A program made the translations under genes and the position numbers. The notes beneath the pieces were generated by a model. The model saw only the letters and a list, made by a program, of their open reading frames with translations. It was not told where the DNA came from and did not search any database. From Sulfurospirillum arcachonense DSM 9755 (GTDB lineage Bacteria; Campylobacterota; Campylobacteria; Campylobacterales; Sulfurospirillaceae): 64,000 nucleotides of DNA. The stretch spans positions 1 through 64,000 of the forward strand of contig NZ_JFBL01000010.1 in the NCBI RefSeq assembly GCF_000597725.1, written 5' to 3'. Each line of letters opens with the position of its first letter. Position 1 is the stretch's first letter. Below are positions 57,991 through 63,871 of this stretch, piece after piece.

Positions 57991-59607
57991 TTGAAACAAT
58001 TTTCTCAGTATAAGCTTATACTTACAATATCGTTATTTTTTACAATTTTTTACAATTTTTCATTTTTTTTAAATCTTCTAAAAGTCTATCCATTTGATGG
58101 TTTTAATATATTATACATATCATCAATTGTACTATTATTAATTAGTTTTCTTGTATTTTTATTTACATTAGTTTCTTCTAAATATACAACTAAACCTATT
58201 TTGATTATTTCTTTATTCATTTCATCTTTTACAGCATATTTTATGGATACTTATCATGTAATTATTGATGATAATATGATTAGAAACTCACTTCAAACTA
58301 ACCTAAATGAATCCTCTGATTTATTTAGCCTAAAATTAGTTTTTTATATGTTTTTTCTAGGATTTCTGCCATCATATCTTATATATAAAGCTAAAATTGA
58401 ATATAAAACATTTGGGAAAGAATTATTTGCTAAAGTCAAAACACTCTTTTTATCCTTTACAATTATCTTAATTATGCTATTTGCATTTAGTAAGTTTTAT
58501 ACTTCATTTTTTAGAGAACATAAACCTCTTCGATATCATATTAACCCTGCTTATTGGATGTATAGTAGTGGAAAATATATAAATAAAACTATCAATAGTG
58601 GGCCAATCACCCTAAAATCAATTGGTGAAGATGCAAAAATAGAAGAAACACAACATAATGATGAACTTGAAAAAACAGAACTTATAATTATGGTAGTAGG
58701 TGAAGCAGCAAGAGCAAATAGATTTTCTTTAAATGGTTATAAAAAAGAGACCAATCCTCTTTTAAAAAAAGAAAACATTATTAACTTCCCAAATATGTAC
58801 TCTTGTGGAACTTCAACAGCAGAATCAGTTCCATGTATGTTTTCAATGTTTGATAAAGATCATTATAGTTATAAAAAAGGGATTTCAACTGAAAACATCT
58901 TAGATGTACTAAAACATACTAAAAATATAAATATCCTATGGAGAGATAATAACTCAGATTCAAAAGGTGTTGCAATAAGAACTGATTTTGAAGACTATAG
59001 AACACCTAAAACTAATACAATGTGTGATGAAGGTGAATGCAGGGATGAAGGCATGCTAGTTGGACTTGAAAATTATATTGAAAAACATAAAGGTGAAGAT
59101 ATATTAATAGTACTTCACCAAATGGGAAATCATGGACCAGCATACTATAAAAGGTATCCTAAAAAATTTGAAAAATTTACCCCAGTTTGTAAAACAAATC
59201 AACTAGAAAAGTGTTCTCAAGAAGAAGTAAGCAATGCTTATGATAATGCTATTTTATATACGGACTACTTTTTATCAAAAGTAATAAATTTTTTAAAACC
59301 ATACTCAAAAGATTATGAAACTGCAATGCTTTATATGAGTGATCATGGAGAAAGTTTAGGAGAAGATGGTCTTTATTTACATGGGCTTCCATATTTTATG
59401 GCACCTGATGAACAAAAACATATTGGATCCCTTATTTGGTTTGGCGAAGGTTATATTCAAGAAGATGTAGACACTGAAAAACTATCTTTGTATAAAGATA
59501 ACAAGTTTTCACAAGATAATCTATTTCATACTTTATTAGGACTATTTGAAGTAGAAACAAAAGTATATAAAAAAGATATGGACATATTATTTAATGCTAA
59601 AAAATAG
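57991..59607 (+). CDS. Phosphoethanolamine transferase (EptA-like)
   Basis: A 538-residue inner-membrane sulfatase-fold enzyme. About five membrane helices (about 10-175) come first, then the periplasmic domain with VVGEAARANRFSLNGY, the nucleophile Thr in SCGTSTAESVPCMFS and the metal site MLYMSDHGESLGEDGLYLHG. It adds phosphoethanolamine to lipid A or a glycan. The start is a TTG at 57991 after AAAAGG; the two are linked by a run of nine T that includes the first two bases of the start codon. Confidence 0.92.
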   Translation: MKQFSQYKLILTISLFFTIFYNFSFFLNLLKVYPFDGFNILYISSIVLLLISFLVFLFTLVSSKYTTKPILIISLFISSFTAYFMDTYHVIIDDNMIRNSLQTNLNESSDLFSLKLVFYMFFLGFLPSYLIYKAKIEYKTFGKELFAKVKTLFLSFTIILIMLFAFSKFYTSFFREHKPLRYHINPAYWMYSSGKYINKTINSGPITLKSIGEDAKIEETQHNDELEKTELIIMVVGEAARANRFSLNGYKKETNPLLKKENIINFPNMYSCGTSTAESVPCMFSMFDKDHYSYKKGISTENILDVLKHTKNINILWRDNNSDSKGVAIRTDFEDYRTPKTNTMCDEGECRDEGMLVGLENYIEKHKGEDILIVLHQMGNHGPAYYKRYPKKFEKFTPVCKTNQLEKCSQEEVSNAYDNAILYTDYFLSKVINFLKPYSKDYETAMLYMSDHGESLGEDGLYLHGLPYFMAPDEQKHIGSLIWFGEGYIQEDVDTEKLSLYKDNKFSQDNLFHTLLGLFEVETKVYKKDMDILFNAKK

Positions 59608-61090: not shown

Positions 61091-61118
61091 AAAACCTCTT
61101 TACATGTAAAGAGGTTTT
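61091..61118. terminator. Bidirectional terminator built on the palindrome
   Basis: A perfect 28-bp palindrome: AAAACCTCTT, then the 12-base palindrome TTTACATGTAAA at 61099-61110 as its centre, then AAGAGGTTTT. It lies between ppiB and the convergent repressor gene and has A and T runs at its ends, so it should stop transcription in both directions. Confidence 0.85.
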
Positions 61119-61780
61119 TATATACTATTTGACATAGTTCCAATAACTTTTCCTAAAACTTCGATATCATCAGCATTTACTAATTCATCTGAATATGACT
61201 CATTATCAGAAACTAAAGCGACCATTCCATCTGATTTTAATTGCAATCTTTTTATAAAAAGCCCAACTGGAGTAGAAACTATATAAACTCCATTTTTATT
61301 TGGATTTTTACTTTCTCTATCCATAAAAACAATATCTCCATCATTTAAAGTAGGCTCCATTGAATCACCTAAAACATTAAGTGCATGAATATTTTTTATA
61401 GATTGTTTACCTCCAAGATGATTTACCATCTCTTCATCAAGCGTAAGAAAATCACTTTGCTCATCATAATTTAAAGCTCCTCCACCTGCACTTGCATAAA
61501 TATCTTTAAAATAATGAACTCTTTCAAACTTTTCACTCTGTGATGTTAAACTCCCTACTACTTGATTAAACATAAGCCAATTTATAGAAATTTTTCTTTT
61601 TGCACAAAACTCTAAAATTTCTTTGTAGGGTATCTTGCTTCTGCTTTTCATCGTAGCAAAACTTACTTGGTTTATATCTAATGCTTCTGCAACATCCTTA
61701 TCAAAAACTTTTCTGTGCCCTATTTCATCAGACAATATATCTTTTATACGGTCAAGTATTTCTCTTAGATCTGGCATCTT
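61118..61780 (-). CDS. S24-type self-cleaving repressor (CI-like HTH)
   Basis: A 220-residue transcriptional repressor. The N-terminal part (1-70: ILDRIKDILSDEIGHRKVFDKDVAEALDINQ) resembles the phage CI repressor DNA-binding domain rather than LexA. The C-terminal S24 peptidase domain has the cleavage-site-like ASAGGGA (Ala97-Gly98), the catalytic Ser139 in LGDSMEPTL and Lys176 in LFIKRLQ, so RecA-stimulated self-cleavage is plausible. Start ATG 61780 with AAAGGA upstream; a longer frame to 61801 is less likely. Divergent from the Y-family polymerase, which I infer it controls. Confidence 0.9.
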   Translation of the reverse strand, partial: KMPDLREILDRIKDILSDEIGHRKVFDKDVAEALDINQVSFATMKSRSKIPYKEILEFCAKRKISINWLMFNQVVGSLTSQSEKFERVHYFKDIYASAGGGALNYDEQSDFLTLDEEMVNHLGGKQSIKNIHALNVLGDSMEPTLNDGDIVFMDRESKNPNKNGVYIVSTPVGLFIKRLQLKSDGMVALVSDNESYSDELVNADDIEVLGKVIGTMSNSI

Positions 61781-61895
61781 ATATCCTTTAAAAGTATTCA
61801 TATAGAAAATAAATATAAATTATATTTCATTTTGTAATATAATTGTACCATAATTTTAATTTTTATTACAATAGTTGAAATAAATTAAAAATTCT

Positions 61896-61918
61896 TCACT
61901 AAATGAAAACTTTAGTGA
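61896..61918. promoter_or_regulatory. Dyad 1 in the divergent control region
   Basis: TCACTAAA (61896-61903) and TTTAGTGA (61911-61918) are perfect inverted repeats with a 7-base centre, between the S24 repressor and the Y-family polymerase. Such a symmetric site is a natural operator for a dimeric CI-like repressor. Confidence 0.55.
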
Positions 61919-61923
61919 TTGAA

Positions 61924-61950
61924 ATACTTATGAACTTTGTTCATGAGTAT
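61924..61950. promoter_or_regulatory. Dyad 2 in the divergent control region
   Basis: ATACTTATGAAC (61924-61935) and GTTCATGAGTAT (61939-61950) pair in 11 of 12 positions around TTT. It is either a second operator or, in the leader mRNA, a stable hairpin ahead of the small leader ORF. Confidence 0.55.
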
Positions 61951-61977
61951 TGAGAATTAAATAAAAAAGGATTTAAA

Positions 61978-62049
61978 ATGCAACAACTTGAAACTTATAT
62001 TCAAAGATTTGAACAAGCTATGTTAAAAGTCAGTAACATTCTTTTTTAA
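61978..62049 (+). CDS. Leader peptide coupled to the Y-family polymerase
   Basis: A 23-codon frame with ribosome site AAAAAAGG, peptide MQQLETYIQRFEQAMLKVSN then ILF. Its stop codon TAA shares its last A with the ATG of the polymerase gene (TAATG at 62047-62051). The polymerase has no ribosome site of its own, so this peptide probably serves translational coupling. No sequence relatives are recognised. Confidence 0.6.
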   Translation: MQQLETYIQRFEQAMLKVSNILF

Positions 62050-63308
62050 TGCTTTTTCATCTTGACCTAGATGCTTTTTATGTTTCAGCAGAGAGAAGTG
62101 TCAAAAAAAGCTTAAAAGGAAAACCAATTGTAATTGGTGGAAGAAGTGATCCATATATATTTTCAAAAGAGAGACTCAATAGAGATATAGTTTTTCAAAA
62201 TACTGGAGCATTTGTTTCTGCTGTTTTTATCGATAAAAACAAAGAAAAACTACCCGAGTATTTTAATGATAATGGAAAAACAAGAGGTATAGTCACAACT
62301 TCAAGTTATGAAGCTAGAGCATATGGTATAAAAACTGGTATGAGCATATCTGAAGCTAAAAGAAGATGTAAAAACTTAATAGTTATAAAACCAAATCATT
62401 CTTTATATCATAAATTATCACAAAATCTAAGAGAATATATGTCTTTACATGTACCCGTCATTGAACAATTTAGTATAGATGAATTTTTTTGTGATTTAGG
62501 AGGATGGATAAGTGAAAAAGATATCTATCCATTTGCAACTGAACTTCAAGCTAATATCAATAAAAAATTCGGATTACCCTGTTCTATTGGTATTGCTAAG
62601 TCAAAGTGGACAGCAAAATTGGCTACTGAATTTGCAAAACCTTATGGTATCAAAAAGATTGACGATACCGATGGATTTATAAAAACTGTTCCTATTGAAA
62701 AATTTCCAGGAATCGGTAAAGCAATGCAAAAGAAACTCCATAAATATAAAAAATTTACATTGGGAGATATTAAAGAATCAAAAATACTTCTTTATTCATG
62801 GGGAAATAGTGGTAAAAATATCTATAATAGAGTTTGCGGAGAAGACAACGAACCCGTTATTGAAAAAATTGGTAGAAAATCTGTTGGTATTTCAAGAACT
62901 TTTGATGCTATTATCAATAGAAAAGAACTTATAAGAAGACTATTTATACTCTCTAGACATGTTGTATTTATGGTTTCAAAATTAGAATTAGTTCCTACAA
63001 CAATTTCCTTATCTATTAGTTACGAACACACAAACAAAAGAAAACAACTCACTTTTAATAGACTTTTTAATGAGCATTTTTTAACATCAACGGTGATTCA
63101 AACTTTTCAGGAATTAGACCAAAGCTCTACTAATAAAGTGATAAAGCTTTCTATCACTTTATCAAATTTTATTCAAAAAGAAAAATTAAATCCTTCTGTA
63201 CTTGATATAGAAAAAGATTTAAAACATCACTCTTTAATGAATGTTAATCTTGGACTAAGAAAAAAATATGGAATTGATATATTACGAAGTGCAAAAGAAC
63301 TCCTCTAG
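62049..63308 (+). CDS. Y-family DNA polymerase (DinB/UmuC type)
   Basis: A 419-residue translesion polymerase. Catalytic acidic residues are in MLFHLDLDAFY (Asp6, Asp8) and SIDEFF (Asp144, Glu145); the helix-hairpin-helix GIAKSKWTAKLATEFAKP and little-finger domain follow. Between IVIGGRS and RGIVTTSSYEARAYG there is an insertion of about 45 residues absent from E. coli DinB. No umuD homologue is adjacent, but the divergent S24 protein may play a similar role. Expression through the leader peptide suggests tight control. Confidence 0.93.
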   Translation: MLFHLDLDAFYVSAERSVKKSLKGKPIVIGGRSDPYIFSKERLNRDIVFQNTGAFVSAVFIDKNKEKLPEYFNDNGKTRGIVTTSSYEARAYGIKTGMSISEAKRRCKNLIVIKPNHSLYHKLSQNLREYMSLHVPVIEQFSIDEFFCDLGGWISEKDIYPFATELQANINKKFGLPCSIGIAKSKWTAKLATEFAKPYGIKKIDDTDGFIKTVPIEKFPGIGKAMQKKLHKYKKFTLGDIKESKILLYSWGNSGKNIYNRVCGEDNEPVIEKIGRKSVGISRTFDAIINRKELIRRLFILSRHVVFMVSKLELVPTTISLSISYEHTNKRKQLTFNRLFNEHFLTSTVIQTFQELDQSSTNKVIKLSITLSNFIQKEKLNPSVLDIEKDLKHHSLMNVNLGLRKKYGIDILRSAKELL

Positions 63309-63871
63309 GAATTCTTTTTTTGTGTAGCAGCATTTAAATAATACCAAAGCCCTCCTAATAGAGTAAGAACTATAAGAGGTCCTAACCAAGGATAGGTACT
63401 AAAATAACTTGAAGCTTTTGTAAGTGTTTCACCTGCTGTAAAACTTAGGTATCCTAACCCTATTGCCCATATTAAAGCCGAAATAATATTCAGTATATTA
63501 AACTTTATAGCTGAATATTTAGTCATGCCAATTCCTATTGGAATAAGTGTTTTTATACCATATACAAACTTTTGAAAAAAGATAATTTTATCACCATATT
63601 TTTTCATCATAATATGACTCAAAGCTAATTTTCTTCTATGTTTCTTTAAATATGGCATCATTTGTTCTTTATTATACCTACTTATATAAAACAAAAGTGA
63701 ATCTCCTAAAGCATTTGCTACAAATGCAACTGCAATAGATGTTGTTAAATCCATTTTACCAGCATAGGAAAGTATACCTGCTGCAATTATTGCAACCATT
63801 CCACCCCCTAATGAGTAGAAAAAAAGTATTATATATCCATATGTTGATAGTGAGTTTATTATATCTTCCAC
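63305..63871 (-). CDS. DedA family membrane protein
   Basis: A 188-residue VTT/SNARE-associated domain protein with about five membrane segments. The motifs GALGDSLLFYISRY-type (here ANALGDSLLFYISRY) and FFQKFVYGIKTLIPIGIGMTKYSAIKF are family markers, with the conserved Gly-rich and Arg/Lys positions. The family probably flips lipids or affects membrane potential. GTG start at 63871. It overlaps the polymerase stop by four bases on the opposite strand. Confidence 0.92.
   Translation of the reverse strand: MEDIINSLSTYGYIILFFYSLGGGMVAIIAAGILSYAGKMDLTTSIAVAFVANALGDSLLFYISRYNKEQMMPYLKKHRRKLALSHIMMKKYGDKIIFFQKFVYGIKTLIPIGIGMTKYSAIKFNILNIISALIWAIGLGYLSFTAGETLTKASSYFSTYPWLGPLIVLTLLGGLWYYLNAATQKKNS

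Follow-up and report, generated by a model that had tools for sequence, protein, structure and literature searches.

The locus described here quite probably forms the regulatory centre of an SOS-type response that works without LexA. It lies in a 64-kb stretch of DNA (the window, meaning the whole 64,000 nucleotides analysed) and consists of an S24-type repressor gene divergent from a micropeptide gene and a Y-family DNA polymerase gene, with a predicted operator between the two promoters. A first, sequence-only reading had proposed a LexA-independent, CI-like switch for a mutagenic polymerase. Comparative genomics lends this proposal strong support and suggests a larger regulon than it envisaged, including recA.

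The Epsilonproteobacteria have been stated to be devoid of a LexA orthologue, and C. jejuni to be without a typical SOS response (PMC2390758). In the open-licence literature we found no description of a LexA/SOS system of this type for Campylobacterota, Arcobacter or Sulfurospirillum, and the main text of the A. butzleri genome paper does not mention LexA, SOS or RecA. From the genome comparisons reported below, the phylum long called SOS-less does appear to have an SOS-type switch, built around a phage-type repressor.

The S24 repressor and the Y-family polymerase

The repressor gene (61118..61777, minus strand) encodes a protein of 219 amino acids with a CI-type helix–turn–helix (HTH) and a self-cleaving-type S24 domain. 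Its start is likely at 61777, because a Shine–Dalgarno sequence (AAAGGA) precedes this position and relatives begin there; the in-frame ATG at 61801 is improbable as a start. Pfam profiles recovered Peptidase_S24 (5e-21) and the Phage_CI_repr HTH (5e-5), and the CI HTH (PF07022), which scores above its cut-off, forms the DNA-binding N-terminal domain; the CI-like DNA-binding half noticed earlier was thereby borne out. So was the intact Ser139/Lys176 dyad: both residues are correct in the 219-aa numbering and, together with the Ala97–Gly98 bond, are invariant in alignments of 23 and 34 sequences. A structure model (mean pLDDT 79) predicts a helical N-domain, with phage 186 CI and LexA as the nearest solved folds. 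The protein scores below canonical LexA (28 bits on the lexA model TIGR00498 vs a cut-off of 111), a profile search of the same genome for the LexA winged HTH (PF01726) gave no match, and the LexA DNA-binding domain exceeds its cut-off in just 2 of 150 related genomes.

The polymerase (62049..63308, plus strand) is DinB-like. It carries the Pfam domains IMS, IMS_HHH and IMS_C, and residue alignment showed an intact active site (DLD/SIDE), so that both the domains and the catalytic acidic residues of the Y family are present. Its C-terminus bears a motif resembling the RecA N-terminus; the clamp motif Q[LIVMF]xL[FL], which was looked for in the polymerase, is absent. Against the NCBIfam DinB/Pol IV equivalogs its best score is 207 bits, vs a cut-off of 399; the enzyme is Pol IV-like but, by the NCBIfam model, not Pol IV. 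Nor is the arrangement that of a UmuD/UmuC operon, since the polymerase is preceded by the micropeptide gene alone and S24 is divergent and has an HTH.

Both members of the divergent pair are real genes with confirmed domains, as first read, and when the pair was sought across the order, 28 of the 30 best polymerase loci had S24 divergent on the upstream side. Judged by these comparisons, the divergent pairing is far above chance. The polymerase is present in 98 of 150 related genomes, and S24 is matched at E ≤ 1e-25 in 143 of 298 genomes drawn from across the phylum, with relatives in Sulfurospirillum, Sulfurovum, Sulfuricurvum, Nitratiruptor, Arcobacter/Poseidonibacter and others; some relatives have no S24 gene. 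In two further families the matches are weaker (E ~1e-26 to 1e-52) and may represent repressors of prophages. The genomic distribution marks the pair as old and chromosomal in the phylum. A recent recruitment of the repressor from a phage, as had been suspected, is unsupported: the family has long been chromosomal in the phylum, and its nearest phage relatives, repressors of Campylobacter and Helicobacter phages, are ~36% identical. A prophage setting of the locus is likewise unsupported, its neighbours being PPIase, hemerythrin and VTT genes (Pfam). The VTT-domain (DedA-like) gene (63305..63871, minus strand), identified by Pfam and by synteny at four loci, directly follows the micropeptide gene in several Sulfurospirillum genomes and marks the point at which the polymerase is present or absent.

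Second S24 genes were seen on plasmids of Sulfurospirillum diekertiae (NZ_CP059996, NZ_CP045454) and Sulfurimonas aquatica (NZ_CP046073), partly beside a Y-family polymerase and with a differing recognition helix. Elsewhere in the window, 57991-59607 encodes a phosphoethanolamine–lipid A transferase of the EptA/MCR superfamily, which passes the cut-off of NF028537 but of none of the MCR models.

The predicted operator

Comparison of S24–polymerase spacers revealed a dyad, ATATTTCATTTTGTAATAT (61822..61840), which lies between the two divergent promoters and is kept at S24 loci across families (consensus ATATTnCA-N3-TGnAATAT). Here it sits in an extended palindrome, 61818-61844. A position-specific scoring matrix (PSSM) built from the S24 loci of other genomes and scanned over the 64-kb window gave 23.9 bits at 61822, the sole match above 10 bits, with a runner-up of 6.6. 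The inferred −10 of the S24 promoter, TGG-TACAAT (61842..61847, minus strand), puts the predicted operator over the S24 start site, and the same extended −10 (TATGCTATAAT) followed by the dyad recurs in Sulfurospirillum relatives. On the other side, the inferred −10 of the micropeptide–polymerase promoter, TACAAT (61867..61872, plus strand), starts exactly 27 nt past the dyad.

The conserved S24 operator is thus probably this third dyad and not the two in the same spacer to which the sequence-only reading had assigned the role. Those two do exist. Dyad 1 (61896..61918) has perfect 8-bp arms, is strain-specific and lies in the 5' leader of the micropeptide–polymerase transcript, and dyad 2 (61923..61951) has 13-bp arms with one mismatch. 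As operators both were rejected: they are missing in the two closest relatives, where the spacer is ~100 bp shorter, and they score −20 bits (dyad 1) and −28 bits (dyad 2) on the PSSM, vs +23.9 at 61822. Dyad 2 occurs once in the genome.

Across the genomes compared, the sequence of the dyad covaries with the S24 recognition helix. Helices of the type INQ/INH...ATMK pair with TATTTCANNNTGAAATA, and SKEH[FY]SRSKK with TTGATANNNTATCAA. One other genus in the family departs from this, with another type of repressor and a recA at which no site could be recognised; this genus and Nautilia-type lineages have different dyads.

Genes carrying the predicted operator

Pattern searches over selected genomes were used to find further copies of the motif. 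Ten genomes of the family contained 61 sites at ≤1 mismatch, vs 8 for the reversed pattern that served as control. Eight Sulfurospirillum genomes had 12 zero-mismatch sites between them, eight at recA, two at S24, and one each at a TIGR03916 radical-SAM gene and a cytosine methylase gene. Among the Arcobacteraceae, a perfect site stands upstream of recA in all three genomes examined; radA has a site in two genomes, and the radical-SAM gene, S24 and the polymerase each in at least one. Of the genes upstream of which a search for dyads had been suggested, recA carries the conserved third dyad in both groups.

In the genome of the window itself, a site precedes an integron integrase gene (TIGR02249), with recA 59 nt further on, and another lies upstream of the DNA-repair radical-SAM gene (TIGR03916). 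A pattern search within the same genus found the site at recA of a second genome, G002. DinD (NF008573) has the site in three genomes (E ~1e-105 to 7e-110 for the two scored). The operator is common to the promoters of S24 itself and of the error-prone polymerase, and in Sulfurospirillum a polymerase far from S24 still has a site (≤3 mismatches) with the −10 in exact register. A motif derived from S24 loci, with no repair genes as input, retrieves SOS and repair functions in these searches.

Several further associations were noted. The integrase–recA pair stands under one site at C13:78591-80799 in the window's genome and also in three other genomes (G001, G005 and G013); partial copies occur at two contig ends (C22 and C23), and in G002 a vestige of the integrase 3' end seems to survive in the recA leader. 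Six loci in Sulfurospirillaceae and Arcobacteraceae combine the operator with the gene of a small zinc-ribbon protein (MILGKCPYCGG...) that matches neither Pfam nor NCBIfam and is a candidate SOS gene. In two genomes a cas6 gene ~7-13 kb from the S24 gene has an operator-like dyad 61 nt upstream, a possible link between damage and CRISPR processing. A GGDEF gene adjoining a PilZ gene has the dyad and the exact −10 offset in three genomes, that of the window included, which possibly links damage to c-di-GMP. Finally, a dyad lies just upstream at seven loci that comprise several genes for DNA methylases and one for an IS200-like (RAYT-type) transposase, with the −10 mostly at or adjoining the expected offset.

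A conserved micropeptide

Between the operator and the polymerase, the earlier reading had identified a 23-codon coupled leader. The open reading frame (61978..62049, plus strand; 23 aa, MQQLETYIQRFEQAMLKVSNILF) and the overlap of its stop with the polymerase start (TAATG) stand, but the functional label does not. We rejected the interpretation as a mere translational coupler because the frame is retained beside S24 where no polymerase follows; in Sulfurospirillum the next gene is a convergent VTT gene or others. Its pN/pS is 0.108 in the genus of the window (three sequences) and 0.232 in Sulfurospirillum (ten), and the other frames exceed 1.2. By these substitution patterns, the supposed leader is a conserved micropeptide gene under selection.

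Lengths range from 23 to 34 aa (34 in Sulfurospirillum, MKSLICTISHSRKAYNEFMNRFEQKMLILSNKIF; 31 in Arcobacter; 27 in Sulfuricurvum; 26, with the polymerase, in other lineages), and the C-terminal residue is always F or L among 24 aligned sequences. Searches against Pfam and PHROG assigned no family, and no QLxLF-type clamp-binding match was seen by eye at the C-terminus. The likeliest role is that of an SOS effector, of which SidA and TisB are examples, or of a repressor modulator; since many lineages have no polymerase downstream, a role confined to the polymerase is disfavoured. GRAVY values run from −0.73 to 1.15. Some of the micropeptides are amphipathic and hydrophobic and others are not, so a TisB-type membrane toxin is at most a tentative reading.

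At 13 Sulfurovum-type S24 loci, another conserved ORF of ~41 aa (MNVKTNKKILNEAMNSGCKTAAELALYVKRRNNLQTAYKKV) is divergent from S24 in place of the micropeptide.

Promoter geometry and the proposed mechanism

The distance between dyad and promoter is fixed. A TAnnnT −10 begins exactly 27 nt past the dyad at 36 of 43 targets, which include non-independent orthologues and represent about ten unrelated gene families; shuffles of the 43 targets gave a mean of 2.7 and a maximum of 9. All 32 micropeptide promoters share the offset. Sites inside genes mostly have no −10 at offset 27 and were taken as chance. At the targets, which have no obvious −35 hexamer, the dyad spans about −57 to −39 with its centre at ~−48, whereas at the promoter of S24 itself it lies over +1 (Sulfurospirillum) or between the likely −35 and −10 (Arcobacter). 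The UP element lies at about −59 to −38, most LexA boxes act further downstream than about −48, and spacing precise to one nucleotide is commoner with activators than with repressors. Given the fixed offset, the bound regulator may either contact RNA polymerase or lie over the UP element; both would fit the geometry.

In the mechanism that we propose, an S24 dimer would occupy the 19-bp dyad at 61822-61840 in the undamaged cell. There it would cover the start site of its own promoter, repressing itself, and would hold down the divergent micropeptide–polymerase promoter, whose −10 lies 27 nt beyond. Further copies of this dyad, equally far from the −10, would control recA, the radical-SAM gene, dinD, radA, the zinc-ribbon protein and, in the genome of the window, the integrase–recA operon. 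Upon damage, RecA–ssDNA filaments would presumably trigger cleavage of S24 at Ala97–Gly98 by Ser139/Lys176; release of the dimer would then switch on the regulon, to which both the mutagenic polymerase and the micropeptide belong. Damage induction and self-cleavage are inferred here, as are binding by S24 and repression of the targets. A bolder version is possible, and we offer it tentatively: a full SOS system, in which the CI-type regulator makes a position-locked contact with RNA polymerase at ~−48, 26 nt ahead of the −10, and the dedicated, conserved micropeptide acts as a tuner or belongs to a new effector class.

The promoter geometry could also be read as activation, with S24 as a dual regulator of the LysR or CI-at-PRM kind that represses its own gene and switches on its targets through a contact with RNA polymerase made at the fixed −48 position, so that the regulon would be on when S24 is bound. 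The exact offset, far above the shuffles, would suit this, as would targets without an obvious −35 and a dyad that overlies +1 or separates −35 from −10 at S24 alone, and a LexA homologue that activates is known in GIL01 gp6 (PMC6182141). However, if an activator were cleaved, damage would shut down recA and the mutagenic polymerase, an outcome that is hard to make sense of. Moreover, the fixed position equals that of the UP element, where keeping out the RNA polymerase alpha subunit would explain the geometry and is compatible with repression. Given invariant cleavage residues and targets that are damage genes, we prefer repression and regard activation, its main rival, as unlikely.

It is distinctly unlikely that this repair-gene regulon responds to a trigger other than damage (e.g. 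an antirepressor, redox or heat), the S24 domain serving dimerisation or turnover only. Such a trigger might account for the sites at the GGDEF/PilZ, methylase and cas6 genes. The nearest solved fold is also that of phage 186 CI, which to our knowledge is not cleaved through RecA, and the fold alone therefore does not prove that S24 is cleaved. On the other hand, the Ala–Gly bond, the Ser and the Lys are invariant in 34 sequences, and the recurring targets are recA, dinD, radA and the Y-family polymerase.

We consider it very improbable that S24 controls nothing beyond the neighbouring polymerase, as in a self-contained mutasome cassette of the prophage or plasmid type. The plasmid S24 genes of Sulfurospirillum diekertiae and Sulfurimonas aquatica, partly beside a polymerase, are in keeping with such a cassette, and HdiR of Streptococcus uberis controls only a cassette of this kind (PMC8565304); yet the site is also found at chromosomal recA, dinD, radA and radical-SAM genes elsewhere, and S24 and the micropeptide are kept without an adjacent polymerase. 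Least credible of all is that some other global regulator binds the dyad and the S24 gene is one more of its targets: although binding by S24 is deduced from sequence comparison, in the families examined the S24 promoter carries the dyad, whose sequence covaries with the S24 recognition helix, and S24 loci with other helices carry a different dyad sequence.

Under the preferred reading, a damage-released S24 repressor, the free-living and arcobacterial branches appear to own an SOS equivalent that includes recA, making DNA-damage sensing in this phylum directly testable and suggesting that the system was lost in the pathogens. If true, expression of the integron integrase would be tied to DNA damage in this phylum, and the locus would add one more independent instance in which SOS has passed to a phage-type repressor, here together with an unusual promoter geometry and a micropeptide that has no name.

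Comparison with known systems

The predicted logic and target classes (recA, dinD, Y-family polymerase, integron integrase) resemble those of the canonical LexA–RecA SOS response, but here there is no LexA winged HTH, the box is another one and the spacing from box to −10 is rigid. In domain order, and as the nearest solved structures to the S24 model, the CI repressors of phages 186 and lambda are comparable; S24 differs in being chromosomal, at conserved loci and with predicted control of repair genes, and the structural alignments give 16-19% identity. Two GIL01 phage proteins can be compared by role, not by sequence: gp7, a small protein that modulates LexA (PMC4551915), and gp6, the activating LexA homologue (PMC6182141). 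A possible home for the polymerase is the 'epsilon-proteobacterial PolIV-like' group of PMC6511836, with which it shares the Y family, the phylum and, in its tail, the RecA-NT-like motif; the passages of that paper that were searched mention neither an S24 neighbour nor a micropeptide for the group.

S24 proteins substitute for LexA in Streptococcaceae (HdiR), Moraxellaceae (UmuDAb) and Bacteroidetes (PMC8565304). UmuDAb is likewise an S24 protein that takes the place of LexA in controlling error-prone polymerases where bacteria have no LexA, but it groups with UmuD, whereas the repressor described here has a CI-type HTH and its predicted targets also include recA, dinD and radA. Closer is HdiR/umuC of Streptococcaceae, in which, according to Savijoki 2003 as cited in PMC8565304, a CI-type S24 protein replaces LexA and controls itself and a Y-family polymerase, and in S. 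thermophilus recA too. It differs in phylum and operator and groups with Streptococcus phage repressors, which match our S24 weakly (27.6%, E 9e-6); the text consulted reports for HdiR neither a conserved micropeptide nor a fixed −10 spacing as described here. The non-canonical LexA of Bacteroidetes, reported to be exclusive to that phylum, also combines a CI-like HTH with an S24 domain, autoregulation and a palindrome at repair/SOS genes that diverges by repressor clade (PMC8565304). Its motifs are GGA-N5-TCC and CTAA-N5-TTAG, in contrast to ATATTnCA-N3-TGnAATAT, the micropeptide and the fixed geometry found here. The best reading of the S24 system is that it is of the same kind as HdiR and the Bacteroidetes non-canonical LexA, in another phylum.
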